The position numbers and the translations under genes are program-made. Shown in pieces: positions 4,779 to 24,785 of a stretch of 25,349 nt of DNA. The stretch is from Phoronis ovalis. Taxonomy: Eukaryota > Phoronida > Phoronidae. Each line of letters begins with the position of its first letter. Within the stretch, counting starts at the first letter, position 1. The stretch lies in the NCBI GenBank assembly GCA_028565635.1, contig JAOXYB010057278.1:1-25349 (forward strand). The letters are read 5' to 3'. The notes under the pieces were generated by a model. It saw only the letters and a list, made by a program, of their open reading frames with translations. It did no database searches and had not been told where the DNA came from.

Positions 4779-4783
4779 CCAAT
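4779..4783 (+). promoter_or_regulatory. CCAAT box of gene 1
   Basis: CCAAT lies 96 bp before the ATG at 4875. The other two intact family genes have a CCAAT at 112 and 113 bp before their ATG. No convincing TATA box is seen between it and the start. Confidence 0.35.
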
Positions 4784-4874: not shown

Positions 4875-5135
4875 ATGTCAAACGAATATAACTACGTTCA
4901 TTATCATGAAAGCTGCAAAGTAAAGAAACAACTAAAATCTAACACAACTTCAACATTTCAACATGTTTGTGTATGTGGCTATGGCAACCATGGTATAAGC
5001 CAACATACAGCGAATTGTGAAGTCATTGGAGTGGTATCACAGCCGTATTGTTGGTGGATAAAATATTATTGGAAAATTAAATGTTATTGTAGGTACATTC
5101 CTACTGTTGACCAAAATCCAGTGGAAGGCCGCTAA
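4875..5135 (+). CDS. Small cysteine-rich family protein, copy 1 (86 aa)
   Basis: Function unknown; I do not recognise the family. The protein opens M-S-N-E-Y-N-Y-V-H-Y-H, in ungapped register with the other two intact copies at N6, V8 and H11. It has seven cysteines: C14, C32-V-C34, C48, C59 and C70-Y-C72. A tryptophan/lysine-rich segment (about 60-69) precedes the second CxC. The tail is P-T-V-D-Q-N-P-V-E-G-R, matching V-D-x3-V-x2-R-stop in all copies. There is no signal peptide or membrane helix. The start is well fixed: an in-frame TGA lies 12 nt upstream and A is at -3. An AATAAA follows the stop by about 20 bp. A decayed copy starts 260 bp downstream. The two CxC pairs could bind zinc or form disulfides; this is inference. 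Confidence 0.68.
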   Translation: MSNEYNYVHYHESCKVKKQLKSNTTSTFQHVCVCGYGNHGISQHTANCEVIGVVSQPYCWWIKYYWKIKCYCRYIPTVDQNPVEGR

Positions 5136-5154
5136 GTTGTAAGAAGCAAATATG

Positions 5155-5160
5155 AATAAA
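5155..5160 (+). terminator. AATAAA polyadenylation signal of gene 1
   Basis: A canonical AATAAA occurs about 20 bp after the stop codon. The 3' UTR would be very short if it is used. Confidence 0.4.
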
Positions 5161-5394
5161 CACGTAATAACTGCTTTTACATACAGTTTTAAAACAATAC
5201 TATTTTAACAGGAATTGACTTACGTAACCATATTCAAACTTGAATAATATCCATGAACGCCAACAAACTCATAAAAGCCTACAGCACAAATTACGATCAT
5301 ATTGATAGTCCGCATCATATAAAACACTTCGTCTATTCTACATGCTAATATAACAGTTAGTCAAGGAGGAACGCCAGTTTAACAGGATGCTTAT

Positions 5395-5639
5395 TACAAA
5401 ACAAAAGCTGCATTGGAACATTATCAAAGACGTTGTATTAAATTGTATTTTTCTTTCAGATTACGATCAGTATGTCTGCTAACATTGTTTTGCAATCCGA
5501 GGATTGATGACCATGATAATATACCTGAATGCATTGGTGAAGGTGTTCTATATCATTAGACGTTTCCATTTTGGCTATAAGAAATTGAGAACAGAGTAGA
5601 TATTCTTCTCCAGTTGATCAAAATACTGTGTATCACAGG
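5395..5639 (+). pseudogene. Decayed copy of the cysteine-rich family, next to gene 1
   Basis: From 5395 one frame reads Y-K-T-K-A-A-L-E-H-Y-Q-R-R-C, which places H9, Y10 and C14 exactly as in gene 1. It continues through S-V-C (near 5453), F-C-N-P (near 5483) and P-E-C-I-G-E-G-V to a TAG at 5557. In another frame the C-terminus follows as S-R-Y-S-S-P-V-D-Q-N-T-V-Y-H-R, almost the gene 1 tail, but the stop codon is now TTG. The copy has lost its start ATG (TAC), the second CxC (now AAT-TGA-GAA-CAG-AGT region), and has at least one frameshift. A T-rich tract ending CAG at 5459 resembles a splice acceptor, but lies inside the homologous region and is probably chance. Confidence 0.72.
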
Positions 5640-5821
5640 TTGGAGCTTACAATTGATATTTAAAACTCCCCTGTACTTGATAAATTGCTGGTTTACTGAT
5701 GTTTACCTAACTACACACTATTTGCACTGTTATTGACTAATTGGAAATTAACGTCACGGTGTTCTTCGGAAAACATTACAAGCTTTTTTCGATCAACTGT
5801 ACCGTAAATCGGAAAGAAATC

Positions 5822-6018
5822 AAGTTCACCCGAAGTTTCATAATATACCATCATCTAACTTTCTAATATATAGCAAATTGGAATTAACCTGTGATTATAA
5901 AAGTGTTTTAATGTAAATTTCTAGTTAATGTACGTCTTCTTTCTTTGCCAATGCTGTTTTATCAAAAACAAATGCTTAGAAAACATAAAACAATATATAA
6001 TACTGCGTAACTTTGAAA
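5822..6018. repeat. Duplicated module e, copy 1
   Basis: This matches 13927-14150. Shared segments are AGTTCAC-C-AAG, ACCATCA-TAA-TTTCTAATA-ATAGCAA, TGATTATAAAA, TGCCA-TGCTGTTTTATCAAAAA and ATGCTTAGAAAA-AAAACAATATA. In both blocks the module comes after a family gene or pseudogene, so gene and flank were duplicated together. Confidence 0.8.
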
Positions 6019-6129
6019 GAACGCTGTTCATAGACTGATTCGAGTACTATATAGAATTTATACATATTCTAGGTTCGATTAGTTTGTGTAACTATAATTA
6101 GATAGAATACTTAAATTATTTTACAAACC

Positions 6130-6290
6130 CAATTTCACGAAAGGTATCCCAGAAGAATATTATACGCAATACTGGCAGACGTCAATAGAAACCCTATTTC
6201 AACCTAACATAGGCCAAATCAAAATATTAAACAATTTCTTACCCGTTTTTCCGTGTTTTACTAAGAATAAGTATAAGCCATCTAGACAAT
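6130..6290. repeat. Duplicated module f with truncated start of g
   Basis: This matches the start of 14285-14650: AATATTA-ACGCAATACTGG, then AAATCAAAATATTAAACA-TTTCTTACC-GTTTTT. After about 6290 the similarity to the block B copy ends, and full g copies appear only after gene 2 (7640 and 7925). Confidence 0.7.
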
Positions 6291-6842
6291 AACATTTGAA
6301 TGAAAAACGTAGCAAATCATGTATATAGACACCTTGCGAACAGATTGTATGCCAAGAGATACATCTGAACTATTGAATATACGTGTATTCCTGTAGCTAT
6401 AAACGATTCATTCAAATTTTATTGTTGGCAAAACCGAATTATCATTATGTTCACTATTAGTAGTAATAAAAAATTTAACTGCTTTGAGAATTATTTTAAA
6501 ATGTGTATTTAAAATTTAATGTCAGGCTTAAAATGCATTAGTTTCAGCTTCTTTTAAATACAGACGAAGCAAGAACCTTCCAACACGACTCTTTGCTTGT
6601 TCACGTTATACTTCCAGTATTTTTACTTTAAATTCACCACCCGGACCAGTTAAGCTACATGCGATAAAAACAATCCATTTTAGTCTCATCGATCTTTATT
6701 ACCAAGTTAACCTTGTAAACATATAGTCATATATTAAAGTGATCTCTCATTTTTGTATAATTGTTTGAAAAAGAAGCCACGAGGCAATGACCTAAAGCGA
6801 AAAGCTACCAATTATAACCCATCTTACATGAACACATTACCG
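6291..6842. other. Upstream region of gene 2
   Basis: No gene supported. This is the left part of the segment (about 6290-7630) that has no counterpart between f and g in block B. Confidence 0.4.
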
Positions 6843-6847
6843 CCAAT
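6843..6847 (+). promoter_or_regulatory. CCAAT box of gene 2
   Basis: CCAAT lies 112 bp before the ATG at 6955, very close to the position seen in gene 3 (113 bp). A CACGCCCCC motif follows 26 bp later. Confidence 0.35.
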
Positions 6848-6954
6848 GGTTTTATTAAACAAAGACACGCCCCCAACAGTAAACCAACGGCAACGTAAAG
6901 CAAACTAACAGAAATACCAAATCATAATAAATAAAGACATCCATTCGCTCTACA

Positions 6955-7248
6955 ATGGCTAACGACTGGAATGACGTCGAATACCATCGGAAACTAACCT
7001 GTAGGTATGTCGGGTATTGGGTTCAGGAAAGAGTCGGCATTCGAAGACATTTGTTGAGATGTTGCAAATGTGGAAATTTTACCAATAAGTTGAATGACGA
7101 GAGACAAGAAAGATCAAGTGATGGGTACGAGAGACATATTAACGGAATTTGCTGCTGGGAAAAAATGGGAAATGGCAAGTTGGTACGTCTTTGCTACTGT
7201 GGACGTTTCCGATCACCAGTCGACATTACCATCGTACCACAAAGATAA
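6955..7248 (+). CDS. Small cysteine-rich family protein, copy 2 (97 aa)
   Basis: Function unknown. The N-terminus M-A-N-D-W-N-D-V-E-Y-H aligns without gaps to copies 1 and 3. Eight cysteines are present: C16, C36-C37-K-C39, C66-C67 and C80-Y-C82. The stretch between the two halves (about 43-62) is hydrophilic, rich in R, E, D and N, and longer than in the sisters, which explains the greater length. The tail S-P-V-D-I-T-I-V-P-Q-R ends at the stop like the others. No signal peptide or membrane segment is present, and the protein is basic. An in-frame TAA lies within about 30 nt upstream; the ATG context ACA-ATG-G is good. The pseudogene at 24478 is its closest relative here (shared H-L-[LV]-R-C-C-x-C and G-[KR]-L-[VI]-R-L-C-x-C). 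Confidence 0.68.
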   Translation: MANDWNDVEYHRKLTCRYVGYWVQERVGIRRHLLRCCKCGNFTNKLNDERQERSSDGYERHINGICCWEKMGNGKLVRLCYCGRFRSPVDITIVPQR

Positions 7249-7630
7249 TGTTTCCCAATTGGATAGAAGTGGAAAGAGAGCTTCTTTGTGTACCCGCATA
7301 TATGTATAAGAGATATTTTATACACCGCTCTGTTTTAATAAAAATGAAATGTAACTATTCATATGGTTATAAACCGAAAAACAAATGTAATTCTATAAAC
7401 TATTCAAATAATACACTGTTTATATCAAATTATAGTGTTATACTTTTAACATCCCAGGTACACGAACAAACCCTGTATTTGGAAATTGGGAGTTCATTTT
7501 CTGGCGAAATTATTAAACAATTTAAAAACATGTAAATAATCCTGATTAATACATATTAATATTATGTGCAAATGCATTTGTAATGTTTCCAGCAATCACT
7601 TTAATTCAACCTAAGCTATACTATGAACAT
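7249..7630 (+). other. 3' flank of gene 2 with an unexplained open frame
   Basis: A frame that is out of phase with gene 2 and begins inside it (ATG at 7149) stays open until 7535, 96 codons beyond the stop of gene 2. It includes C-N-Y-S-Y-G-Y and N-K-C-N-S but lacks the family's start or tail motifs. It may be chance or the remains of another copy. An AATAAA at 7337-7342 could end the gene 2 transcript. Confidence 0.3.
7337..7342 (+). terminator. AATAAA polyadenylation signal, possible end of gene 2
   Basis: A canonical hexamer lies 88 bp after the stop. In this AT-rich DNA it may be chance. Confidence 0.3.
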
Positions 7631-7639
7631 TATGCACAC

Positions 7640-7880
7640 CAAAATCAAAAACGTTTTTAAAACAACTTTTCCGTTTTTGTGTAATCCTGTTGCACTTACT
7701 AGGTATAACCCATATATGCTATGTATCCTAAAGTAATAATCTGTGAGAGATATATCCGTAAATCTAATGTATTCTTTAATAAATATTCACACGCTGTGTA
7801 CCAGTTGAACTTTAGTCCTCGATCATATACCCCGATTATATTGTTGTTCAATGGCGGTTGATACAGGATTAGAGTTTTTT
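7640..7880. repeat. Duplicated module g, copy 1
   Basis: This copy is tandem with 7925-8165 and matches 14405-14650. Shared marks are CCGTTTTTGT, CCATATATGCTATGTAT, AATAATCTG-GAG-G-TATATCCGTAAAT and CAATGGCGGT followed by TTTTTTTGATTTAG. Confidence 0.75.
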
Positions 7881-7924
7881 TGATTTAGAACAGTTCGGCG
7901 CAATTAGATTACTCTTTAACTACA

Positions 7925-8165
7925 AAATAAAAATCTAACAATGTCTTACCGTTTTTGTATATTGTATTACAAATAAATGTAATCCATTCGCATCCTGTGT
8001 TTATCGTAATGAAATAATCCGTGAGTGATATATCCGCAAGTTGAATGTATGTCTTCTGAAAACCTCTCACGATATATAAACTGAACATGAGTTCACAATG
8101 CTATGACCTGATTTTATCGCTTCAATGCCGGGCGGATGAGAATACAGCATTTTATTGATTTCCTC
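7925..8165. repeat. Duplicated module g, copy 2
   Basis: TCTTACCGTTTTTGTATATTGTA, AATCCATTCGC, GTAATGAAATAATCCGTGAGTGATATATCCGCAAG, GCTATGACCTGATTTTATCGCT, GCATTTTATTGATTT. The last two segments are closer to the 14.4 kb copy than to the adjacent g copy. No gene lies between the two g copies here, so a gene-bearing segment may have been lost. Confidence 0.75.
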
Positions 8166-8439
8166 AAGCAAACTGAAAATCACACTTGAAAGCGGGATTT
8201 TGGAAGTTACAGAAGGAAGAAAAAAACATAAATTAGATATCTTGATTTTAGACATACTACAAAAGATTAAACCTGTGTTTGCTTTTATCTAATACACAAA
8301 TATACGTTTGAAACTAACATATGGATATCATATGTAAAAAAATCATGAATTTCATCAACTATGTAGTTGGTATTTGACTATATAAAGATATGCCGTAAAT
8401 AATAATTATGTCTAGCAGTGTATGGAAACATTAATAGAT

Positions 8440-8520
8440 AAATGTTGTGCGTTATTTTGCTATAGAAACTCGTTAAAGCAGTACAATACAATGCCAAACA
8501 ATGAAGATCAACGATACATA
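8440..8520. repeat. Duplicated module h, copy 1
   Basis: This matches 14925-15025: TT-TTTTGCTATAG, then ATGCCA-A-AATGAA-ATCA. The short frame from the shared ATG reads M-P-N-N-E-D-Q-R-Y-I-H here and M-P-D-N-E-H-Q-Q-N-H in the other copy, but neither goes on into the family's Cys pattern. Confidence 0.55.
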
Positions 8521-10022
8521 CACCGCCATGTTTTATTATAATTCCTGTGAATCACATATCTACACGCATACTAAACAATGAATAACCCAGTCTTCTATAT
8601 CATGAAGGAGCTAAAGTGAACTGATGATAAGCTTCATTATTTTGTGAACAAATTTTCTGTGTGAATGTTAGTATTTAAAAACTATATTACGGACCGGGAG
8701 GCGTAATTTCTGCTAGAAGATAACGAATCAAAAAGCAAGTGTATAGCAAAATTTTCCAGCATTCTAACGCCATCTATCGGTACCATTTAAAACAAATTCA
8801 TTATTATTGTAATTGAATATTTCATCATTACTTATCAGAATAAATGTTCAATTGATGACATTTCGATTCAGTGGAGTATTTATCAAATAATTATATAACT
8901 CTAATCAAAATAGCATTACTAGCCATTTTAGAAACGACCAATGAAATTCTTGTCTCAAAGAAGAAGCGATGGCTATATTTGCTCAAAGTTCTTATAAGAA
9001 TACAGTCTTAGACTGAATTTGCGTGTTGGATTATTGTTCTTTTGGATTGCAAGAAGATAATGTATTCTTGTTCACAGTATATTATAATAATACATCTACA
9101 AGCATTTAACTAAACCCGTTTCAAGACCGCAAAAAGCTACTGTACACACAGAGGCTTCCCGATATGCACATGTACGCATGATCTCAAAGAATAGATCGAG
9201 ACACTTTCGTTAATAACAACAGAAAACAAATGGATGTGATATCATTGCTTCACTCAGCAGCTATTAAATTTTTGGCATGCTCAAGAAAAACTAAATAGCA
9301 TATATGGTGAGGAACCTAAGCAAATTGTAGAACGTCTAGAACAAAAACCAAATCGAAATAGCCAATTGCAATGCATGATATAATGATGTTTGCCATTTCG
9401 GAGTTCTTACAGTTGAATTATATACAACATAATACATGAAACAACCAAATGGCTGTGCTAGTATTTTTTTCTTATTACTTTGGCCTTTCTTTCTTATCTT
9501 CCCTGAAAAGAAAAATGCTTCGTAACTACTAAGTTGTGTTACCTGCAGGAAAAAAAGGGTACCGACACTTCTGGATATTTCATCTCGTGAAGAAATGAGA
9601 TCACGGATGTACCTATAGAGTTAGTCACAATAGATGTAAACTGTGTTTTTTGCCTATAAAATAATTTTTTAATATTTTTGGTGAAAAAAGAAGTCAAGAA
9701 AGTCAAAACGCTACCTTGAGGTATTTGAAGATGTGCATAAAATATTTGAAATTTTAAATATAGCAATTTTAGATTTAAAAAATGCTTTTTGATTTGGGCC
9801 ACATTTTTTATTTACATGTTAAAAGTTGGATAGTGACAGATGGGTGTTTCTTACAACAGATAAATTACCTTGGATATAAAAGGTGACTCTCTAGGTATCC
9901 AAGTGTCACCAAAGTTTTGACACCAATCAAATTGCAGCCTACAATAACAGGTATAACAGTGGACTAAGCGGGTGGGGGGTCGATCACACAAATGCTGTGC
10001 TACCATAGCTTATCTGTAGCCC
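8521..10022. other. Non-coding stretch between blocks A and B
   Basis: No gene supported. The part from about 9540 to 10000 differs in texture, with Sse8387I-like CCTGCAGG, A-runs, and GGTGAC...GTCACC arms near 9881-9915. It lies directly before module a of block B, has no counterpart before copy 1, and may be an inserted repeat. An 87-codon minus-strand frame (9539-9802) has no family features. Confidence 0.4.
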
Positions 10023-10170
10023 GCTAAACAAAAAGCAAGATACCAGGCGATACCTATTCAAAATGAGTCATAATGATATAATAGATGTAGTAGGCGACGA
10101 TGGATCACGCAGAAAGAAAATCTCGGTTGGCAAAAGATTAATGACGTAATTATGCCACTCTTGTTATAAA
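10023..10170. repeat. Duplicated module a, copy 2
   Basis: This is the counterpart of 347-488 and marks the start of block B. Similarity stops close to 10170, where lower-complexity AT-rich sequence and the 33-bp repeats begin. Confidence 0.8.
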
Positions 10171-10380
10171 ATAGCTTAAAAATCTTACAAAAACAAAAAT
10201 TTAGTCCCAAAAATAATAAAAGTATATTTTTACTACTTTATTTACATTATAATTAAGTCGTGTTATTTTTTTCTAAGATTTTGTGTTTTAATTTTAAACA
10301 TTATTTTGAAAAGTGTCTTAATTTAGTGTACTATTTTATTTGGAACCGTTTTTTTTGTTGTTGTCAATTTTTCTTGTTAA

Positions 10381-10475
10381 GATCCCAAAGGCCAAAAAAG
10401 GGTATGAGTTTTGAGCTCATAGATCCCAATAAGGGTAGGAATTTTGAGCTCCTAGGTCCCAAAAAGAGGCTTTTT
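10381..10475 (+). repeat. Short tandem repeats, 33-bp period
   Basis: Two and a half units start GATCCCAA / GATCCCAA / GGTCCCAA, each with an AAGGG-like segment and TTTTGAGCTC at the end. In one frame (within a plus frame from 10260) they read as 11-residue repeats P-K-K-G-M-S-F-E-L-I-D and P-N-K-G-R-N-F-E-L-L-G. The frame stops soon after. They are absent from block A, so they sit in extra DNA between modules a and b. Confidence 0.65.
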
Positions 10476-10530
10476 TTACCCTTCATAACAAGAATGTCAC
10501 CCCCCAACTCACAAATCGACCTTTGAAATA

Positions 10531-10979
10531 TTCAGCTTAACCTGAGGCTAATATATCTAAGGTGATATTCGTTTCAGAGATTAAGTACCTCTATAATATA
10601 TATGTATTTAATTTTATATCTGTACGGGATCTGTTAAAAGTGAATAGGTGAAGCTACCTATAATATGCATCCTTTATTTAGCAATGTAAGTGGAGTTTAT
10701 GTTAGAAAACTAGGGTTGTGAATTGCTAATGTAAATAGAAGTTAGTCATTTTTGAAGCCTGCATTTGGATCTATGCAAAAACATGTATAATGTAGTTCAT
10801 CTTTACATGTGTTACAATGTGGGTAGAATCTATTCAGGGGGAGTTTCTGCTCTAGTGTATCTCATGCGTTCTAAATTTAGTGGGAACTAGTCCTCAGTTT
10901 AGCTAAAGCCACTGTTTCGAAAAGTTCAGATATTTTTCTTGTTTGAATTCTTACATTCAGTTTAATTTTTAAAAGCAGC
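10531..10979. other. Non-coding spacer before module b
   Basis: No gene or clear structure supported. Confidence 0.4.
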
Positions 10980-11207
10980 CAATGAAATCCTCTAGTCGTA
11001 ATTAATACCCACATACTGACCAATCAGGAAATATACTTCGCCAACAGTCTGTAGTAAGAAACAATTGTAGCAAAATCATACAATGGAAAACCCCTTGAGT
11101 CGATCATTTGTCAAAATCCCATAAACTAAAATAAATCCTCCCGTGTTTTGCAAAACATCCAACATAGAAAATCATATATAGTTTATTTAATATCAGGAAT
11201 ATGCAAA
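10980..11207. repeat. Duplicated module b, copy 2
   Basis: This is the counterpart of 899-1155, with the same landmark order and about 30 bp shorter through several small gaps. Confidence 0.8.
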
Positions 11208-11701
11208 AACAATAAAAAAACGAACTCGCGAATTTGATAACGAGTTTGAAGTATCTCCTAATTTCTCAATCAACCGATATGTATTAGTTTGGATCGTAAT
11301 CTTTTGTTCTATGGTGGAAAATATTAAATTATTACTAGACAAATCAAATAACGCTTGTAAAATGGCAACAAACAAATTACTTTGTAGAAAATGTTGTTTC
11401 CGAAAATACCTGTTAATTATAGCTTCGTTTTGTTACAACCCCACTACTGTACAACCAACATAGGCTGGTGTTATTGTTTATTAGCAGAATATTTTTTAAA
11501 TCAAGCTTATGCTAACATTGACTCATAAATTTGGTATGGATAAGGAATGTTCTTCTTAAAAATGATTCTATGCTGTAAACATAAGTGAACTCAATAAAAA
11601 AAACGGCACCCCCATGATTTTTCCAAAAAGCGGAACATTTTCCATCATACAACAGTGCAATACATATATGGTACACCATCAAATCTTCCTACTGTTAAAA
11701 C
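11208..11701. other. Extra sequence between b and c in block B
   Basis: Block A has only about 110 bp here, block B about 490 bp. One plus-strand frame is open for roughly 90 codons (about 11190-11462, no ATG until 11311) and includes L-L-C-R-K-C-C-F. That is unusual for this base composition, but the family's end motifs are missing, so it is not called as a gene. Confidence 0.35.
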
Positions 11702-12052
11702 ACGCAACAAAATAAAAAAAGCAAAAAACACTGCACAATTATCTACAAAAAAAATACTCTAAATCTGTAAAATAGCAAAATTAAGACAAAATTAACTTAG
11801 TCGAAGGAATAATTTTTGGCAAGAACAATCTGGTAGAATATACTATAAAGTGCTTGAACTAACCGACATGTTTAATTTAGAAAATTGTTTTTTACAATTG
11901 GGCAATTTGTTTTCTTATTCTTATATTTATTTTTAACGCTAAAAGGATTAATCTTGTGCCCCTAAACACAATGATTTGATCTAATTTAGACTTAACATAT
12001 ATCAGTTGCCAACATCAAATGCACTTCAGTACCTTTGCACCAATCTACGCGT
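11702..12052. repeat. Duplicated module c, copy 3
   Basis: This is the counterpart of 1264-1478 and 3105-3437. GTAAAATAGCAAAATTAAGACAAAATTAACTTAG is the clearest shared run and is also the point where copy 4 is interrupted. Confidence 0.75.
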
Positions 12053-12440
12053 AATTTTTTTAACTTCTGTTTTAATTGTAATCCTAATGAATTGTGTTAC
12101 GTAACCTTTAACATTTTTTTAAAATGAAAGTAAGATAATTACCGCGATAAGATCCTTTGATTTTGAACATACCTTTTGAAATATAAAAAAATAAATAGGA
12201 TTAACAAAACTTACTGTTATTTTTTAGTATATCATTAGTCTAAGCACATAAAAAAATATGCAAAAACTTTTTTATTTCTTGCCTCGTAACTTAGATTTTA
12301 AAATAGCACACATCTCATAGCAACTAGGCCAAAAAATTAGCTTTATTGAGTAAAATAATCATAATAATAATAAATACATGTACTTTGGTAAATTGTTGCA
12401 TTATCCCTAAATTAAAACACAACGTCTAACGAATATATAC
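12053..12440. other. Non-coding, AT-rich
   Basis: No gene supported. A short AAT-repeat lies at about 12357-12375. Confidence 0.4.
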
Positions 12441-12770
12441 TTGTGAATATGAAATAATTGTTTTTTTGTGAAACAATATAAAATAAATACGCACAATACT
12501 ATATTCTATGGTAATTGCAGACACGTTTAGGTTCTGTAACAATGTAAATATATTACAGTATACGTCTTTTTGAAACTAACTGTGATGTGTTAATGTATTT
12601 GGTGAAGTAATTATAAGGCATCATATATACGGACTTAATTCATATAAATTATCGTAAGTTTTATATGTAAAGATGTCTCGTCAAACTTGATAAAGAAGTG
12701 CATACCTTAGTCAATTTGAAGTGGAAACCGGCGCCGAAATTGCTACAGTTTTTACGATAACAAAACTAAA
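12441..12770. repeat. Duplicated module d, copy 2
   Basis: It contains AGATGTCTCGTCAAACTTGATAAA near 12671. Beyond it, TTTGAAGTGGAAACCG-CGCC and TTTTTACGATAACAAAACT match 18040-18090 better than block A, so blocks B and C share this half most recently. Confidence 0.75.
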
Positions 12771-13631
12771 ACCAATTGCGATAGACACACCATAGGTCAC
12801 AAATATTGAATACACAAATAACACTATATAACCTATATAATAATCGAGAGCGCAGTAATATTCAAATAAATATAATATATAAGATTTTTAATTAAATGGT
12901 TTTAACTATACACATGTATAACATCACATAAAAAATTAACACTTAGTAGTATGCTTCTTTTTTCATTTTCAATTTGTGGATAAAAGATTTCCTTACTTTG
13001 TGAAATGCCAGCTCAGGTATACAATAAATACTTTAAACTGTTATTATTCTTGGGAAATTTTATATCATCGGGTTTATAATATTGTTAGAAGCACAGTTGT
13101 GTAATATTTTTGCCTTTCTCATGTAAAGTAAGTTTCCAAGAACAACTATATTGCAAGTTCTAATTAAACATCATACTTTAATTTTTTAGGTGATAGACAA
13201 AGATTCGAATCATATTACGGAAACGCACAATGTACATATAGTGTAGTAATATGTTATGTTACTATATATATATACATGATTTCAGTAGTTATATCCTACT
13301 CGATATACTAATATGTGTGCTATAACTTGTCCAGATAATTGCTAAGTAGACGTATTATTGATATTGCGGCCACTCTACATGCTGTAATAATAGCGGATCT
13401 GAATAAATTTTGCTGCAGTAATGTTTTTTAACCGTAATTATATAACAAAAAAAATAGTATTTCGAAGAACAAGAACTTCAAAAGCATTACGGGGGGACAA
13501 AAACTTTCTAGCCTGTGTTGAGATCGAGAGGTCTGTAAACACGTGGTTTTCTTTACTTATTGGGTAAAATGCAGTGGACAAATCACTTTTGGTTTACACT
13601 AGTAGCCGTTAATATTGAGAAATAACTCAAG
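12771..13631. other. Non-coding, AT-rich
   Basis: No gene supported. There is a short TA microsatellite near 13262. An inverted CCAAT (ATTGG) lies about 75 bp before the pseudogene. Confidence 0.4.
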
Positions 13632-13806
13632 GAAGCAAACGAAGTTAAAGTTATAAAAATACCATCGACAAAGCGTGTGTAAGCAAGAACCATCTTGTCG
13701 CAGAGCTGCATATATATTTTGCAAAAAATGCAACGGAAACTCTCATTCACAGATTTGCATAGATACAGAAACAGCATTAACCGTTCAGTACCTCCGTAAA
13801 AAATAA
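13632..13806 (+). pseudogene. Decayed copy of the cysteine-rich family in block B
   Basis: Codons 2-9 read A-N-E-V-K-V-I-K. One extra A in an A-run (13655-13659) then shifts the frame, and Y-H-R-Q-S-V-C-K follows, so A2, N3, E4, Y10 and H11 sit exactly where they do in gene 2 (A-N-D...E-Y-H). The frame then runs through P-S-C-R-R, I-F-C-K-K-C-N-G-N and Q-I-C-I-D-T to a TAA at 13804. The start codon is lost (GAA in its place) and the second CxC with the canonical tail is missing. It lies between modules d and e, the same place gene 1 takes in block A, which supports orthology of the slot. A 64-codon minus-strand frame across it is a shadow. Confidence 0.68.
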
Positions 13807-13926
13807 TTTATTTCATGAAAGATTTCTTCCAAGCAATACCAGGTATATGTTTGGTATCATACGTAACCAAGGTATTGGGTTTCTTTCTAAAAAGACGAAT
13901 AACTACAGCCCGCACTGCTGAAGACG

Positions 13927-14150
13927 AGTTCACACAAAGCTGCAACTTCTACCATCAAGTAATTTTCTAATACATAGCAAGCTTGACATAATAAGTTAGT
14001 TCATGATTATAAAATTATTCTTTATGTAAGAGTCTAGGAAAATAGCATACTTTATTTCTATGCCAGTGCTGTTTTATCAAAAAGCAAAATAGCAATTCAT
14101 CAATACCAGGTAAGCATATGCTTAGAAAATGCAAAACAATATAATACTGA
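13927..14150. repeat. Duplicated module e, copy 2
   Basis: This is the counterpart of 5822-6018, with a short insertion (about 30 bp) before ATGCTTAGAAAA. Confidence 0.8.
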
Positions 14151-14284
14151 TCTAAAATATTGCAAAAAGATATTTAATGTACTTTACCATTCATTTTTAA
14201 ACAGCATTACTGTTCTATGAGATTTGTAACTGTTCATAATAGTAAATATACTTGAATATTTATCTTACCAACAAAGTTTTAGTA

Positions 14285-14650
14285 AAGTACATATATACCT
14301 GAAAAATATTACGTGCAATACTGGTGAAACGCAATAAACAGGAATGAACATCCACAAAAAGCATCCTACTTTAGCCTATCATACGCCATAGAAAGGTATG
14401 ATTCACCAAAAATCAAAATATTAAACAGTTTCTTACCGTTTTTGTTTATTCTGCAACCAAACAGTATAATCCATATATGCGCTATGTATGCTAGCGAAAT
14501 AATCTGAGAGTAATGTATCCGTAAATAAAAGACTTCTTTGTGAAATTCACGATGAATTTCACTTCACATCCAGCTCACAGATCTATACTATTGCCTAATT
14601 TTATCGCTATACGTACAATGGTGGTCGGAGTGCTGTTTTTTATTGATTTA
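14285..14650. repeat. Duplicated modules f and g, block B
   Basis: Here f and g are continuous. In block A the same junction is broken at about 6290, and g resumes only after gene 2. This copy therefore shows either the ancestral arrangement or a deletion of a gene-bearing segment. Confidence 0.75.
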
Positions 14651-14924
14651 GGGATAATGAAATACCGCGTGCTTTTAGTTTGAACAACTGTTAGAAAGAT
14701 AAAATACTTAATTACAGAAATTAAGCATTTTAATATGGAATATTAGTGTTTATCATACGGATACATTCCTATATATGAAAATATGAATGTATCATACAAG
14801 AGAATAATTATGTCCAGAAATGTTGTTCTTGTTAGGTTCAGTTTCCTGTTTAATAACATTTATCTAGTTTCTGTCCATAGCTGCGCGTGTGCTAACAGAA
14901 ATAGAAATACTAATATATTTTTTC

Positions 14925-15025
14925 TGTATTCTTTTGCTATAGCCTTTTTTGAGCAAACATTTATCATACGATAAGAAAACACTTTATCACTGCATGCCAG
15001 ATAATGAACATCAGCAAAACCATAT
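14925..15025. repeat. Duplicated module h, copy 2
   Basis: This is the counterpart of 8440-8520. The plus frame from the shared ATG (14994) runs for 40 codons with two cysteines but has no second CxC and no V-D tail. Confidence 0.5.
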
Positions 15026-15893
15026 GTCAATCAGCGCATGCCACACAATAAATATTCTGTATAAAGACGAGGAATTCTACTGTCCTAGAATTCAAAATAA
15101 CCTAGTGATATAGTTAACTGTTATTGAGAAATATTACTACACATGTTTGATGGGCCATTTCTAGCGTCTGTTTAATAGCGCATAATACCTGTTTATTTAC
15201 ATATATTTACATATATGTATTTTGAAAACAGAGACATCATCAACACCAGCTCCACGACATTGTAGGGAAAGTGTCACATGCATTTTCGAGTCTCGGTTTA
15301 TGAATAAAATGTTCCGCATGCTTATCAAAGACGGTGACAGGTTTTTCTTCTGACTGATTTCGTTTTCATCTTTACAAAAAGATGTAAACATTTTGTGTCA
15401 GTGTTATCAAACGGCTTTTCCTTTTTAGATCCGATTCCATTCTGATCAAACAGCTAGAACACCACATGAATACTTATCCGCGATTTGCAGGTGACATTGA
15501 AGTATATTCCAGTCAATGTGTACAACTTTGAATTGCAATATAATTTTGTTCCATGGAGAAACTATCACAAGACGAGACAAATAACACTGATAAAATGAAA
15601 AAAGAACGAATTTGTTGCTTTGTAACTGCTGCTTCTGAAAATGTTTGTTAGGTTTTATTTTTTTTGAACAAAGCGTAAGTTAAAATCAAAAGAATTTAAG
15701 TAATAATAATAAAATCATAGCTATGGTTTGCATTGGAAATGCTCTTTTTAAAATGAATTATATATATGCTGTTTGTGTACTAAAACAACCGTACACATCC
15801 CGCGTTTTTCATTAAGCCCTCACAAAATGCGTTTCTTATCTCTGGAATTTTACTTCGGGATACTGTTGTAACATTCAATAAAAATCTATACAC
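15026..15893. other. Non-coding between blocks B and C
   Basis: No gene supported. A 64-codon minus-strand frame (15197-15391) has no recognisable features. Confidence 0.4.
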
Positions 15894-16690
15894 GTTTTCG
15901 GAATAAAACACAAAATGCCGAAAAAATAACTACAAAACACATTTTTACAGTTGTAAAATAGAAAATTTAAGACCAAACTAGATTCCATGTCGCATGACAA
16001 GTACACTTTTTCGAACACAAATTTTGTGTCGGCCATTTCGGATTAAAAATAGCCGTCAAATACTACAAATTGTCATTTTAAGAAGTCAGCAAACATTTAA
16101 TCCAAGTTTCGGTGAAGTCGGTCAAGTACTTGATGAGGTAATCAAGATGTTTTCACATGGCAACCATTTTGAATGCAAAATAGCAACCGCCTTTTTTACT
16201 TCAACATTTTACCCTCAGAAAATGGCAAGCACCTTTATCCAAATTTCGTGGAAATCGGTCTAATAGTTTCCATAGTGCTAGTGGCCGCTATTTTAGATTA
16301 CATCAAAAAAGTGTCCTGTTCAGATCCATAAAAACATTTCCACAAAATTCCGTTTAAATCTGACCCGTACTTACTGAGAAAACCTTCGGAAAGAATTACT
16401 GAAAAAAGAGAACGGATGTGACAACAGTATGTCTTCCAACTTTATTGTTGGAAGCGATAATTAGCTTAGTTCAATGGATAAACTATTCAAGAAAACACGG
16501 CAAGAATTATCTAATAGATCTCACTAGGCAATACTTGTGGTAAGTGATACGTTTCGTTCCGAAATTCATTTTTTTAACTAGGAGCAATTCTTTTTCTCAT
16601 ATGTATTTCAATATTGAAAAGCAAAATATCCACTAAGTTACAATGAGTTGGCCTAATTTCAACTTATTATTGTACGGTAATCTACATTTA
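15894..16690. repeat. Duplicated module c, copy 4, split by an insertion
   Basis: The left part (15894-15979) ends GTAAAATAGAAAATTTAAGACCAAA. The right part restarts at TTAGCTTAGTTCAATGGA (16461) and runs through ATTCAAGAAAACACGGCAAGAATTATCTAATAGA, matching copies 1 to 3. About 480 bp of unrelated sequence separates them. Confidence 0.72.
15980..16460. mobile_element. Inserted repeat element inside module c
   Basis: This sequence is absent from the three other copies of c, so it was inserted after duplication. It carries degenerate subrepeats: TCCAAGTTTCGGTGAAGTCGG near 16101, TCCAAATTTCGTGGAAATCGG near 16238 and a weaker third near 16339. GGCCATTT/CAACCATTTTG/GGCCGCTATTTT segments are interleaved. 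Near its right end CTTCCAAC (16433-16440) and GTTGGAAG (16447-16454) form a perfect 8-bp stem around TTTATT. An 89-codon plus frame across it is a by-product of the repeats. I see no transposase and no certain target-site duplication, so the class is open. Confidence 0.6.
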
Positions 16691-17939
16691 ATACAATCTG
16701 CTACATGTACACTTATGTCTTGTAATACCCTTATCATTTACACCTGTTTTATTTGAAATCGCAGCTCTCATGAATTGTTCATATATTGACATGCTTGAAT
16801 AAGGTTAAAATAACTTTCGTTTTTCTAGTTAGAAGAACGTCACGTATATGGCATTTATTAACCAAAAGAAACTGGTCATACATGATTTTTTTAAATTATA
16901 CATATTCTACATTGTTCCTGTATTTAAATTTAAAATAATTTATTCTTAGTAGATCCTTGCAGAAAAATAGTAACATGTTAGTGTATCATATTTTACAAAA
17001 TTCGTTAATATAAATTCTTTTCAAAAGCTATTAATATATGCCAAATTTAAAATTTATTAAAATTTAATTGAAAATAAGCTAGTACACATAAAAAATGTAT
17101 TATGGCTTCATCTTACCACATTTCAAAACAAGTTACATTGAAAATATAAAGAATGGAGAGGATTTTTTTAACAATATAGTACTGGTACATATACATGTAT
17201 CAGTAGCCTGTGCACATCAAAACAAACAACATTTAGTGCGAGCTAGAAGACAAAAACTAGGTTGTTCACACATATTCATAATTCATCTTATATGTAAATC
17301 AAACATGCATTATTTTCGTAGTTGATCCAGAATTCATCACACTGCTGTAAATTAATTACAAAAAAATTCATTCATTGATTCTTCTGAATAAGTCATGTTT
17401 TTATTTCGTTTTAGCATATAATGGAAGGAACAGATTGCTTATAAAGTAAGGAGAATAGTGCACATATTTCATATTTTAAAAATCGTCAAGATGATGCGCA
17501 TTACATTAAATTATATAGGTTATCCATGTTATTACAGACATTTAACAGAGGTTTTCGTGTATTATTTCGTGTATTATAAAAAGAAGACTATATGTGAAAA
17601 TATCTAGTTTTAACTAAAAACTTCACCACATACCATTATAAATACATTAATAAAGTTGAGCTAACAAATACGTACACGTAGATATAGTTATGTTAGTTTT
17701 ATGAACTCTTATAATTTAATACTTTTATGGAGTTACCAACAATAGCTAATTGACATTCTCAAAGGTTGATCAATCTCCTAATTTTTATTACAGAAATCAT
17801 ATATAAAGGAAGGTGATAAAACTTTCAATATAAGCGTTGCTTTGCAATTTTGATTTGTGCAACATTTCATTTCTTTTTGAAAATATCATAAAACAGTATG
17901 CACGTCCTTGAAGAGGAACCTAATTTAAAAATCAGATTT
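16691..17939. other. Non-coding, AT-rich
   Basis: No gene supported. A 76-codon plus frame (17095-17325) has no family features. Confidence 0.4.
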
Positions 17940-18090
17940 GAACTGAGACTTTATTCGGAATTCAAATAAATTATCATAAGTATCATAAATATGCAATGAT
18001 GTCTCGTCATACTTGATAAAAACTACAATTTTAGCTCATTTCAAGTAGAAATCGACGCCAGCATTACGATAATTTTATGATAGTAAAACT
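17940..18090. repeat. Duplicated module d, copy 3
   Basis: GAGACTTTATTCGGA-TTCA, AAATTATCATAAG, TGATGTCTCGTCATACTTGATAAA, then TTTCAAGTAGAAATCGACGCC and ACGATAATTTTATGATAGTAAAACT. The second half is closest to 12690-12770. Confidence 0.72.
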
Positions 18091-19027
18091 GAAGACCTCA
18101 CTAGGATTGACCATAGATAACAAAACTTAAATCGTGATACGAATATAATTTATTTCTATATAAATTCATGCATTGTTAAAACACTCGCGAAGAACAATTC
18201 AAATTACTTGTACAAATACAACTATCAATTTGATTCCTTTGTTTTTTAAGTCGGTTTAATTTCCGCGAGAAAAGCTGGTAATAATGTTGCATTTTTACGA
18301 ATTGCGTTATCTACGTTCAGGGGGTGTTTGAAAAATGATCACCGTTTTAAAGTGGTTTAAATATTTGAAAGAATGTTTTTGTTCAACGTCAAGATATTTG
18401 GCTAATTCGTGGCGTCAAGGTTTTTTCGAGTAACGTCATGAAGTTCAAAATTGTGTTCCTTCCGTGAAAATCACTTTTTTCGCATTTTAAAAAAATCTAG
18501 AAATGTACATTTTTTATTTTTTGATATGTTTTTCTCCTTCCCTTGAGCCTACTTTAGACATCATTTTTACTCTCAAGTGCATTCCAAACGTAATAAGTAG
18601 TAGAATTTATACCTCGGCCAAAATCGCAAAAATTCTGCCGTTATTCTAAAATTAAATGTCTTCACGGTAAAATACGGATACATGTCATGCCTTTCAAATG
18701 TTATTAAAAACACCTTCCATTATATTTTGCTTGTCGCAAATTGTTTACAGTCTATGCAACCGCTATTTCGTTATTACAAAAAACGAACATTTTGCGCTTT
18801 AAAAAAAACTGGAGAAGCAACTGGCCTTCATATTATATGAGATGTTTCCTTAACAGCTACTCACGTCTATTTTTAATCATAAAAGAAACTAAATGGTATG
18901 AATATATTTTTGGTAAAAAGACTCATGATCGGTTGCAAGTCATATCAAGCATCTGGTAGAAGTAATAAGAACTGAAGAGTTTCCTCTGTATGTATCAATT
19001 TTACGATGACGTTTGTTCCGGTATTCA
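18091..19027. other. Non-coding, with a probable inserted repeat
   Basis: The stretch from about 18300 to 18690 (GGGGGTGTTTGAAAAATGATCACCG..., CAACGTCAAG, GTGGCGTCAAGG, TAACGTCATGAAG) is less AT-rich and has a repeated CGTCA/GTCAAG flavour unlike the neighbouring duplicated DNA. No protein-coding potential is visible. Confidence 0.35.
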
Positions 19028-19140
19028 GTTTATAAAGCAACTGATGTATACCATTCACAAAAGACAGTCTTTTAGTCAAATAAACTTTGTCAGCTGCTGT
19101 TACGTCCAGTATAATCGATTTGACTGTTGTGTAAAGGCCT
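19028..19140 (+). pseudogene. Possible heavily decayed family copy in block C
   Basis: One frame reads A-T-D-V-Y-H-S-Q-K-T-V-F-stop-S-N-K-L-C-Q, comparable with V-I-K-Y-H-R-Q-S-V-C-K-Q-E-P-S-C-R of the 13.6 kb pseudogene. AGCAA, TATACCAT-CACAAA and CTTGTC...AGCTGC are shared at DNA level. It lies about 0.9 kb after module d, as the block B pseudogene does. Another frame gives S-C-C-Y-V and F-D-C-C-V-K. The match is short and stop-interrupted. A 70-codon minus-strand frame covers the same DNA and could be the real signal instead. Confidence 0.3.
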
Positions 19141-19157
19141 GAAAAAATACCTAACAA

Positions 19158-19922
19158 ATAACATCAGTCAAATCCTAGGAAAGTTTTCGATAGCGGAATT
19201 TGTCATAACACCCATAGATTACAATTATAAAAAAAATATGAAAAAAAGCATAATATAAAATCAAAGTCTGACTGACTAAAAAAAATTATAATTATCACAA
19301 ATAATAACTTAGTGTAGCGAATATTATTCGACACCATTCATTCACACTGACTTTATGCGTCAAGTTAAGGTTTAGCTAATCATATGAAAATTTATATATT
19401 TTTAAAGTAACTCAAACTCTAAATATGTAACATATTATTCTCTAAGTAGGTCATGGGACTTAAACGATTGCCGTTTTGGGCTAAAACGTTAATTTTTTAA
19501 AACAAAAATTCAGTATAATTCAATAGAGCATAAGAATATAAATAGAATGTAATATAAATTCAATAGGATATAATTAAGTCAAAAACCCTTTTACAACATA
19601 TTTGAATATTGCACAAATTATATTCTTTACATATGTAGCACAAAAAGCATCTCAAAATTTTTGACAAACACTGTGAATTTCCAAATCTTTATCTCTTTAA
19701 TTGTATTGATTTTTTCCTAATATAAAGTTTCAAAAATCTGTTATAGTTTTCTCTAGCTATATTTATACAAATTATTTGGGCAAAGTTTCAACTGTGGAGT
19801 TTTATTGGTTTTTGTCTTATATTCTTTTGAATTTTACATTTTACAATGGCAACCATATAGGTCACGTGGTATACCCAGAGAAAAATAAATTACAGATTTA
19901 GAAAGTTTGGTCTGTATATTCA

Positions 19923-19957
<35 letters not shown>

Positions 19958-20820
19958 CTGATAAATCTAATCTTTGCCCATATTACTGACTATGCTCACA
20001 AAGATTTTCTCATTTATCATTAAAATATTAATAAGCCCTTGTTGCTTAATGTTTTGTGCGCCGTTTCTCTTTATTATTCATTGTAGACATTGTTTTTTGT
20101 ATGCCGTAGTTGCAAACATTATTTTGAAGCTGGGAATAACAGGTGTATAGTGAAATGCCTGTTACTGGTACTGCTAGATGCTACTGCATCTAACATATTT
20201 TTTTTTCATATTTGACTCCACAAGCAGAAACGATTCAAGTGATAAATACCTACCTTACAATTTTATTTTATCAAACTCACTTCCTCACTGGAAATATATT
20301 TTGTGAAATTTTATATCATATCTCACTATAGCTATTGAGTCCTGGAAGTACTAGGAAGTAAGATATTTTTTAACATTCTAGTTTAATACGAATTTTCATT
20401 GATATCTTGCCTATCTTACATAGCAATGTTCAGATTTCATATATTTGTGCGTACGTTAGATTATCTATGTAAACTGTATATAGTATCAAGATATATAATT
20501 GCTGCAAGTTAAATAGTTGATGTATTGCAAAATATCTTTCTATTTACATCATATTCACAGCAAAGCATTTACACTGAGCAGTACAATACATGAGACAAAG
20601 TAATTATACGCATGCACAAACTGAAAAGCAATTTGAGGTTAAAATATAAGAGAACAGATAAAAGTGAAAAAAGAAAACAGCACAGGCAACCAAAAAATGT
20701 CATTTCCACATATTTATTTCTTATTGTGTATATTTATCTGCTGTCACTAATAATGTATTATGGTAAAAGAGCACGCATTATGTATAGCTCGAAATAAAAG
20801 TCATGTAGTTGACGGCATGA
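19158..20820. other. Long AT-rich stretch without a gene
   Basis: Apart from the TA microsatellite at 19924-19957 nothing is supported. A 61-codon plus frame (20612-20797) with a basic start and a hydrophobic end has no further support. Confidence 0.4.
19924..19957. repeat. TA microsatellite, 34-bp perfect palindrome
   Basis: TATATAC, ten AT units and GTATATA make a perfect self-complementary run able to form a cruciform. AGATTTA (about 19893) and TAAATCT (about 19963) lie outside it in inverted orientation. Confidence 0.8.
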
Positions 20821-20822
20821 AA

Positions 20823-20911
20823 CTGACGCTTTGTATACGCTCTGATCCTATAAAACTCATCCTATAAACATCATATAAAATTATAGGGTCAGAAAGTGTG
20901 CGAAACGCCAG
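20823..20911. repeat. 30-bp inverted repeat pair, possible MITE or RNA hairpin
   Basis: The left arm (20823-20852) and the reverse complement of the right arm (20882-20911) agree at 22 of 30 positions. Seven of the eight differences are transitions, and four of them would pair as G-U in plus-strand RNA. The loop is 29 nt and repeats CATCCTATAAA-like sequence. It could be an old miniature transposon with decayed terminal repeats. It lies about 470 bp before gene 3. Confidence 0.55.
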
Positions 20912-20966
20912 CTATGCTAGGATACGTTAATTTCGCGCTGCCATGTACATGACGTTTAATTCGCAG

Positions 20967-20974
20967 TATAAATA
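20967..20974 (+). promoter_or_regulatory. Consensus TATA box TATAAATA upstream of gene 3
   Basis: TATAAATAA follows GCAG and lies 415 bp before the gene 3 ATG. Initiator-like TCATACC is about 30 bp further on (near 20999). If it is used, the 5' UTR is long or spliced. The CCAAT at 21269 argues for a nearer promoter. Confidence 0.25.
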
Positions 20975-21268
20975 ATCGTGCTCTTCATCATACCATTGTG
21001 ATTATTAGCAGTAGGCAAGCCTATGCCAGCAACAACAAGAAGACTTCCATGAGCGTGGATCATCTTACCACATTGTTGGTATCAGGATAATTCCCCCTAT
21101 GAAAATTCACAATTTATACACATTTCCAAAGATATTAATTAGTTATTTAATTCAAGTTCAGATTTAAAATACACCAATTAGATAATTGGCTACACATGCA
21201 CACGTCCAAAACAAAGAGTACTTTATTCCACTCCTGTGGGTCGTATTCTAAGTTCAAGTTTGTCTCAG

Positions 21269-21273
21269 CCAAT
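21269..21273 (+). promoter_or_regulatory. CCAAT box of gene 3
   Basis: CCAAT lies 113 bp before the ATG at 21382, and a TATATTTT stretch follows about 26 bp later, a plausible core promoter spacing. Confidence 0.38.
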
Positions 21274-21381
21274 ACCGATCATTCTGCCATCAAGATAATA
21301 TATTTTTTTAATCTCTTGTGACTCATAAATTTACATACACACCTTTACGCTAGAACTACACCAGCAAAAAGTTGAAGTAAC

Positions 21382-21636
21382 ATGTCTACTGAAATAAATG
21401 TAGTAGGAACTCATGGATCTGGCTGTACAATGACATATTCCATTCAAGGGACCTCTAAAAAGATGTTTCAACTAATATGTTGTTGTTCAGCAGGAATGGG
21501 ATCAAGACAGTTTTGTCATTCCATTGGTTGCAATCATTTGATGATCCAAACAATATCAGGGAGATACAAATTTAAGATACAATGTTCCTGTTCTAGTGTG
21601 CCTGGGGTTGACGTTGGCAAAGTAGTTAAACGTTAA
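21382..21636 (+). CDS. Small cysteine-rich family protein, copy 3 (84 aa)
   Basis: Function unknown. M-S-T-E-I-N-V-V-G-T-H keeps N6, V8 and H11, with T in place of Y10. Eight cysteines: C15, C33-C34-C35, C45, C50 and C68-S-C70. The region before the last pair is G-R-Y-K-F-K-I-Q. The tail is P-G-V-D-V-G-K-V-V-K-R-stop, again V-D-x3-V-x2-R. There is no signal peptide or membrane helix. An in-frame TGA lies 9 nt before the ATG, and A is at -3, so this start is firm for the contiguous genomic sequence. It is the most divergent of the three, sharing mainly the Cys frame and both ends. No canonical AATAAA is near the stop. A decayed copy follows about 350 bp downstream. Confidence 0.68.
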   Translation: MSTEINVVGTHGSGCTMTYSIQGTSKKMFQLICCCSAGMGSRQFCHSIGCNHLMIQTISGRYKFKIQCSCSSVPGVDVGKVVKR

Positions 21637-22590: not shown

Positions 22591-23720
22591 TGTGTAGGAG
22601 AAAACCATGCAGTAGCCCTATAGGGGTGAAACATGACCGTCCCAGATTTTGACACAACTTGCAGGATATATATGCTCTTTACATTTACTCATTTTTTCCA
22701 CCAAAGTTAATTTTAGCTCACTATACAAGTTTGAACATTTGACCCTCAGAACCACTGAAATCCCTTTTACATGCTATTATATAGGGAAATAGGGCACTTC
22801 GGATCTTCAGATCTCCCATGGTAGAGCCTAGGTGGCAAAGATGTTTAAACATGATGAATGGGTATATCTTAAATATTTAATTTTATACGTCACACCCGGG
22901 TAACTCTTTTTCATTTTTCATTAGCTAGGCTACATATTCAAATCCGAAAAATTGAAAAATCACCAGAAAATGGGATAGAAAAGCAAATTGTTTAATAGCT
23001 TCTTTATTTAATAATATTTTGTTGCTATCTGTAAAATTTGAACAGGTGAAAAAAGTGCATAATGCAACAATATATTTTTTTTTAGTAATTTCAGTTATTG
23101 TGATGCATGAAACAGTACAAAACGGCTGCCCAATCCAAGATGGCCGCCAAATATCGTGTCTTTTCATATAAAACACATGGTTTAACTGGTTCTTACCATC
23201 AGTTCCAAATAAGTAATAATGAACATAATGCATGAAGATGTACCTCTAACAATATTGGACATTTGGTATGTGTTGATATCCAATATGGCTGAAAAAAAAT
23301 CAAGATGGATGACTTTGTTTTTAATCTAGCAATAAAAAACACAAAATTAGGGCGAATTGTGCACTTTTTCACACAAACACCAAATTTGGCACGAATGTAG
23401 AGTTCAACATTGCAAACAATTTTGAACAGTGACCGCATCTTAAATTTTCCAAAATGGCCGCCAAATCCAAGACGGTCACCTAAAGTAAAAGCTTTTACTA
23501 AAAGTATCACAAGGTTGTACCAGATATATTCTAAAACGTGAAAAACGTACATATTGTAAACAAATTAATCATTTATGAAATACAGTCATTGTAGCATATG
23601 CTAGTATCCAAAATGGCTGCCAAACTTAAGATGTATGCAAAAAAAAGTAGTATTTATTTCTAGTGGATGTGGAACTCTTCTGAGAGAGGTAAAAAAGATC
23701 AAACCAAGAGGTATTTGGAA
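22591..23720. repeat. Degenerate interspersed repeat region with ~163-bp periodicity
   Basis: AAAATGGC-GCCAAATCCAAGATGG-like cores recur at 23118, 23281, 23450 and 23609, spacings of 163, 169 and 159 bp. A GTGAAAAA-GTGCA segment near 23046 appears inverted near 23360 (TGCACTTTTTCAC). Two minus-strand frames of 102 and 117 codons run through the repeats and read G-F-G-G-H-F-G at the cores; they follow from the repeat and are not gene-like. The left part (22600-22900) has CCCTATAGGG (22616-22625), CCCGGG and similar GC-richer motifs and may belong to the same old element. Confidence 0.6.
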
Positions 23721-24477: not shown

Positions 24478-24785
24478 ATGTCTAATGATGGAAACACCAT
24501 AGAATACCACCACCACCACCACATATAGTGTGAATGAAAGACATAGCAGAAGAAGAAATAAACATGTATAGATACACCTTGTAAGATGCTGCAGCTGCGA
24601 TAATTATAAAACCATGAGTCACCAGCTGTATCATTTTGGCCGTACTCGCACATGCGAGGGGTATTATGTGCACCATGATGAAAGATGTCGATGAAAAAAA
24701 GTTTAGGAATGGCCGTTTGATACGACTATGCAACTGTTCATATTACTAGAGTGCAATCGATACCAATGTTATGCATCATAGATAA
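24478..24785 (+). pseudogene. Frameshifted family copy with a histidine tract
   Basis: The ATG frame reads M-S-N-D-G-N-T-I-E-Y, then five histidines from a CAC repeat, I and TAG. H-L-V-R-C-C-S-C-D-N-Y follows in the +1 frame (24566-24598 area), then R-T-C-E-G-Y-Y and R-C-R. The +2 frame then gives F-R-N-G-R-L-I-R-L-C-N-C-S-Y-Y, TAG and S-A-I-D-T-N-V-M-H-H-R, with a TAA exactly at the family's end position. Each half matches gene 2 (H-L-L-R-C-C-K-C; G-K-L-V-R-L-C-Y-C; S-P-V-D...R). Two +1 shifts and at least three stops make it non-coding as assembled. The start codon, Kozak-like context and tail are intact, so decay is recent. Two minus-strand frames (65 and 83 codons) over this DNA are shadows. 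Confidence 0.75.

Follow-up and report, generated by a model that had tools for sequence, protein, structure and literature searches.

The retroviral-type CCHC zinc knuckle carries its ligands in the order C-x2-C-x4-H-x4-C, the SWIM zinc finger follows the order C-x-C-x(n)-C-x-H, and metallothioneins consist of about 20-30% cysteine and contain no aromatic residues. Small size, many cysteines and clustered, fast-changing genes are typical of secreted antimicrobial or toxin-like peptides, and immune or reproductive recognition often evolves in gene families that are multicopy and lineage-restricted and that combine a fixed scaffold with free loops. Here, we analysed a family of small cysteine-rich proteins encoded by a Phoronis ovalis contig of 25,349 bases (C3480), the whole of which is referred to as the window, and by four other contigs (C2168, C3488, C3479 and C4785) of the same assembly (77.4 Mb in 4805 contigs). 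An earlier note on this DNA had described three intact window genes as an unrecognised family, and their frames of 86, 97 and 84 codons were recovered exactly, on the plus strand. The genes are almost certainly real and related. They form a true animal multigene family that is apparently confined to one cluster. Animal-type exons on other contigs of the assembly (TM2, C-type lectin, and one exon with Ras-association and myosin-head parts) identify the host as an animal. Of two markers searched for the phylum, tyrosinase gave no match in this assembly or in the controls and C1q gave three matches, and neither fixes the phylum.

The CCHC zinc knuckle, like further small Cys/His modules, resembles the family in having four Cys or His ligands per module, a small size and two modules in one protein. 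However, the family order is H...C...C-x-C with long loops, and no Pfam match was obtained. The SWIM zinc finger likewise combines a C-x-C pair with a single Cys and a single His, but the order is reversed in the family, with H and C ahead of C-x-C, and again Pfam gave no match; none of the eight family domains was matched by a Pfam zinc-finger model at E up to 1. Metallothioneins are similar in their C-x-C pairs, intracellular location and tandem genes. Cysteines and aromatic residues number 7 and 13 in the 86 residues of the first window protein (P1), 8 and 10 in the 97 of the second (P2) and 8 and 5 in the 84 of the third (P3), and on this content a metallothionein identity was rejected; 7-8 cysteines in 84-97 residues together with 5-13 aromatics point to a folded domain and not to a metallothionein cysteine coat. 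The cysteine-rich antimicrobial peptides of bivalves and other invertebrates are also small, rich in cysteine, multicopy and fast-changing, whereas the family has a conserved His and shows neither a visible signal peptide nor a Pfam match.

The view that the family is unrecognised agreed with the library searches, as no significant match was found in Pfam-A, NCBIfam, PHROGs or the PDB sequences. In Pfam-A, P1 reached at best 14.3 bits where the cut-off is 20.2, and a double-domain protein from C4785 reached 12 where it is 22.6; the best matches in Pfam (E 0.021) and NCBIfam (E 0.011) scored too low for the cut-off or came from single members only, PHROGs matched single members only (E 0.0078 or worse), and none of the PDB sequences matched at E up to 10. 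Profiles of the three proteins and of the eight domains found no match at E up to 10 in a set of 5.8 billion proteins, a result given no weight because its control, one 187-residue C-type lectin frame (a partial exon) from the same assembly, found none at E up to 0.001. No such family appeared in titles or the starts of abstracts in the literature, which is weak evidence given that subscription journals lie mostly outside the coverage. Judged from its sequences, the family is an orphan relative to Pfam, NCBIfam, PHROGs and PDB, and it is larger than the window alone shows.

Intact genes and their relatives in the assembly

P1 (4875..5135, plus strand, 86 aa), P2 (6955..7248, plus strand, 97 aa), which belongs to a second subfamily, and P3 (21382..21636, plus strand, 84 aa) are intact single-exon frames. 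The shared N-terminus, CxC frame and VD...R-stop tail ascribed to them were all found, and profile tests and genome searches supported one family with common ends and cysteines and free loops. A profile built from six other family domains scored P1 at 56.0 bits, compared with 12.9 for the best of 2000 shuffles; by the same approach P2 scored 19.4 (best of 2000 shuffles, 10.0) and P3 22.5 (best of 2000, 12.5). Leave-one-out profiles were applied to seven domains in turn; all seven, and likewise the second domain of the fused gene, beat 2000 of 2000 shuffles.

When only the window genes were used, a P1+P2 profile found P3 (13.9 against 13.6 for the best shuffle) and a P2+P3 profile found P1 (15.5 against 13.9), each narrowly exceeding all 2000 shuffles. 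For the P1+P3 profile on P2, 36 of 2000 shuffles were equally good, so that P2 is weakly tied from these genes. BLASTP gave E 8e-5 for P1-P3, E 0.008 over 13 residues for P1-P2 and E 0.34 for P2-P3. The weak tie of P2 is what one would cite for the view that the frames are open by chance in AT-rich DNA and the motif is imagined, an explanation that is barely credible against same-genome relatives with E-values down to 1.4e-15 and eight Cys domains scoring above all 2000 shuffles.

These relatives came from searches of this assembly that score best candidates only, and are paralogues within the same genome, where homologues with the same end motifs do exist. P1 found C2168:17846-18073 (49% identity, E 1.4e-15, one stop), an open frame at C3488:4837 (36%, E 6.0e-8) and an open frame at C4785:3670-4131 (40%), the last in two stretches at E 0.010 and 0.015. 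P2 found C2168:24173 (E 2.0e-9, two stops), C3479:1182 (E 1.3e-6, open), C2168:16340 (E 4.4e-4, two stops) and C2168:28014 (E 0.0026, interrupted by the contig end). P3 has its BLASTP match to P1 and a decayed relative at C2168:26539. In antisense to this decayed relative lies an 86-aa frame (L017:6420-6680, plus strand) with a family-profile score of 15.7 bits, which we take as a coincidence. Genome-wide, the start pattern matched four times (control, one), three of the matches being known members, and the tail pattern nine times, compared with 11 in a reversed control, five of the nine being known members. On reading three frames, the remaining start-pattern match (on C844) and the four remaining tail-pattern matches were rejected as members, and a C1359 match to P1 (E 0.2) was dropped on reading.

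In total, seven intact Cys-type genes with eight domains were obtained. Four lie outside the window: C3488:4837-5091, C3479:1505-1164, C4785:8865-9164 and a fused double-domain gene at C4785:3670-4179 (L020:3670-4179), in which nearly a whole domain has been duplicated in frame; its two copies are 77% identical in DNA, and an additional in-frame ATG lies 26 codons upstream. The proteins measure about 84-113 residues, and 170 in the fused gene.

A CCAAT box was found at -84 to -134 in all eight intact genes, a Cys-poor one on C2168 included, whereas an interval of this size should contain 0.07 per gene; the interval was picked after inspection, and the copies share descent. In the window, these boxes lie on the plus strand at 4779..4783, 96 bases before the P1 ATG, at 6843..6847, 112 bases before the P2 ATG (a second CCAAT starts at 6808), and at 21269..21273, 113 bases before the P3 ATG. 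The P1 box stands inside a CCAATAGNAA-like stretch that is common to the copies on C3488, C4785 and C2168. AATAAA signals occur, also on the plus strand, 20 bases past the P1 stop (5155..5160) and 89 bases past the P2 stop (7337..7342). Each gene is predicted to consist of one open exon preceded by a CCAAT box, with a spliced upstream exon still conceivable.

Ligand pattern and a candidate metal-binding scaffold

Six positions (C14, C32, C34, H44, C70 and C72 in P1 numbering) are invariant in 8/8 domains, in an alignment that sets the CC and CxxxC of two domains into the last cysteine pair (C70/C72). A His stands 2-5 residues ahead of the first Cys of each half, in both halves of every domain, and the full H-x(2-5)-C...C-x-C pattern is present in all eight first halves and six of the eight second halves. 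This ligand pattern suggests an internal duplication that would have given two similar halves.

With six to nine cysteines per domain in small, clustered, fast-changing genes, the family could also consist of secreted, disulfide-bonded peptides of the antimicrobial or toxin-like type, exported unconventionally or by way of an unseen upstream exon. We consider this unlikely, given that the proteins lack a hydrophobic start and that an in-frame stop precedes the ATG by 2-26 codons in all seven Cys-type genes; the M-[SA]-x-[DE] start is conserved in most, a CCAAT box lies upstream, and histidines are retained beside the cysteines. The Cys-type proteins have a polar start with no visible signal peptide, as judged by eye and not by a prediction program. 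The lack of a visible signal peptide suggests that the family proteins are probably intracellular, and Cys together with His in such proteins would, on general knowledge, point to a metal, most likely zinc.

The reading that we prefer, with somewhat less than even confidence, is a metal-binding scaffold with diversified loops. The protein would then probably be all-beta and consist of two similar hairpin halves, each binding a single metal ion (most likely zinc) through H-x(2-5)-C and C-x-C. Its constant ends and ligands would maintain the scaffold, and specificity would be carried by loops that are free in length and sequence.

Selection and constraint

In simulations of neutral drift with the substitution and indel rates of the flanks, both members of the closest pair stayed open in 1 of 5000 trials, and in 0.7% when indels were ignored. 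Third-position excess was found among the window genes (P1-P2, p 0.005; P1-P3, p 0.005; P2-P3, p 0.008) and in most distant copies tested, although P1 against the first C4785 domain reached only p 0.10. Between distant copies dS was high or saturated and dN lower, as for P1 against the same domain (dN 0.52, dS 1.33).

For the closest separate genes, both on C4785, dN was 0.34-0.36 and dS 0.54-0.75 in hand-chosen alignable blocks, the intervals being wide; aligned automatically over the full length, the pair gave a dN of 0.61-0.63 and a dS of 0.74-0.75. The two fused domains gave dN 0.16 and dS 0.12 in blocks, with overlapping intervals, and dN 0.24 and dS 0.35 in full alignment. Since block and full-length alignments give different values, the dN/dS ratios depend on the alignment. 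Identity in the C4785 pair was 0.56-0.69 in coding windows and 0.58-0.87 in 23 of 24 flanking windows, with 0.40 in the remaining one, and between C3488 and C4785 the block dN was 0.36-0.52, with flanks at 0.47-0.50. The dN/dS comparison proposed in the earlier note thus came out below one between distant copies, but for the closest copies dN was about the flanking rate, and the value for the fused pair changed with the alignment. Taken together, we read these data as constraint on the frame and ligands with loops that change fast, perhaps under selection, perhaps under plain weak constraint.

Several observations weigh against a metal-binding scaffold with selected loops. Two of the eight second halves have CC or CxxxC instead of CxC, a profile comparison of the two halves reached only p 0.008-0.02 with a probability of 1-5%, and the structure predictions for P1 and P3 (pLDDT 38.9 and 44.6) were too poor for use. 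A Cys-poor frame at C2168:19942-19691 (L016:9692-9943, minus strand, 84 aa), with the family start and tail motifs and one cysteine, may be a member that lost the metal ligands, a borderline assignment in which 1 of 2000 shuffles was as good. P3 has no AATAAA or ATTAAA in 400 bases, and only one of six decayed copies, one of the six being anchored by guess, has a CCAAT in the interval used for the intact genes. The closest copies show no third-position excess (p 0.65 and 0.69), the block dN of the C4785 genes about equals the flanking divergence of 0.35-0.37, and weak constraint accounts for the dN of these copies equally well as diversifying selection.

The last points fit a weakly constrained duplicate family without strong function, in which old copies were constrained and recent ones are drifting to decay, and the numerous decayed copies would suit it as well. 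Even so, frames and ligands are retained in 8/8 domains where drift would usually close frames, distant copies have dN below dS wherever dS is measurable, and intact genes have kept their CCAAT boxes, so that we regard such a family as improbable. If the genes are only weakly constrained, they are just another orphan family, and of limited interest; if expressed and metal-binding, they would offer a new domain together with intact, fused and decayed copies for studies of turnover.

For the preferred scaffold, the most likely use would be recognition of a changing partner, such as a pathogen or gamete component. Multicopy families that join a fixed scaffold to free loops usually serve recognition; for the present family such a role, or the defence role named in the earlier note, is a guess by analogy, and a doubtful one. 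The complete proposal, that of a new animal domain forming an intracellular scaffold of two tandem H-C/C-x-C metal hairpins, with loops diversified by selection, as a multigene recognition or restriction system of one lineage, is less likely still.

Duplication, decay and surrounding DNA

Intact and decayed paralogues lie within duplicated non-coding DNA, in keeping with the birth-and-death evolution that had been proposed. The family units share non-coding DNA at 58-90% identity, and one such stretch (14400..14660, plus strand; related stretches at 7703-7796 and 7924-8073) had copies on four cluster contigs only in a DNA search. Diverged segmental duplications of 70-74% identity were found within the window (308-484/9984-10166, 891-1081/10972-11140 and 2050-2218/12515-12694), and others link C3480 with C2168 and C3479. 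These observations show that copies arise when kilobase segments are duplicated together with their non-coding DNA, and that they decay through stops and frameshifts. The contigs carrying the family likely belong to one physical cluster, although they could not be joined. Contig numbers were not used as a sign of adjacency, as the lengths of several consecutively numbered contigs differ by single bases, which points to numbering by length.

A mobile-element or viral gene that was captured and copied might also account for numerous single-exon copies with flanks in common. This is very improbable: in the best-candidate searches copies occurred on 5 of 4805 contigs, within long duplicated segments, and the 14400-14660 element flanks them on four of those contigs only. 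Among viral contigs, 57 pattern matches yielded no confirmed relative, and the single-member PHROGs matches given above add none.

Decayed copies number about eight overall, two of them only probable. The clear one in the window (24478..24785, plus strand, E 5.1e-7) belongs to the P2 subfamily; it starts with MSNDGNTIEYH, contains stops and frame changes, and carries the tail SAIDTNVMHHR in another frame. Its start motif scored 33.3 in a scan that was not trained on this copy, compared with at most 24.7 in six shuffled windows. It is 87-89% identical to C2168:24469 in gene windows and 77-98% in the surroundings, as expected of decay. A probable copy at 5598..5639 (plus strand) retains the tail RYSSPVDQNTVYHR, preceded by broken frames that begin near 5474; the tail scored 25.8 bits, which one of 15 shuffled windows exceeded (maximum 28.5). 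Four decayed copies had been counted in the window, of which one is clear and one probable, and two further ones could not be confirmed individually. Sites near 4434, 5800 and 13900 are candidates by eye or by flanking duplication only. Outside the window, decayed copies lie at C2168:24469, 16552, 18073 and 26539 and near 3740 on C3488, with a probable one at C3479:453-535; C2168 thus holds four, besides one copy cut by the contig end and the doubtful Cys-poor frame.

Rfam and tRNA scans of the window gave no match. A 33-base unit is repeated 2.2 times at 10395-10466. By eye, short stretches of caagatggccgccaaat type recur at 23100-23650 as an apparent repeat, and the GC-rich contig end (25260-25349) resembles a repeat edge.

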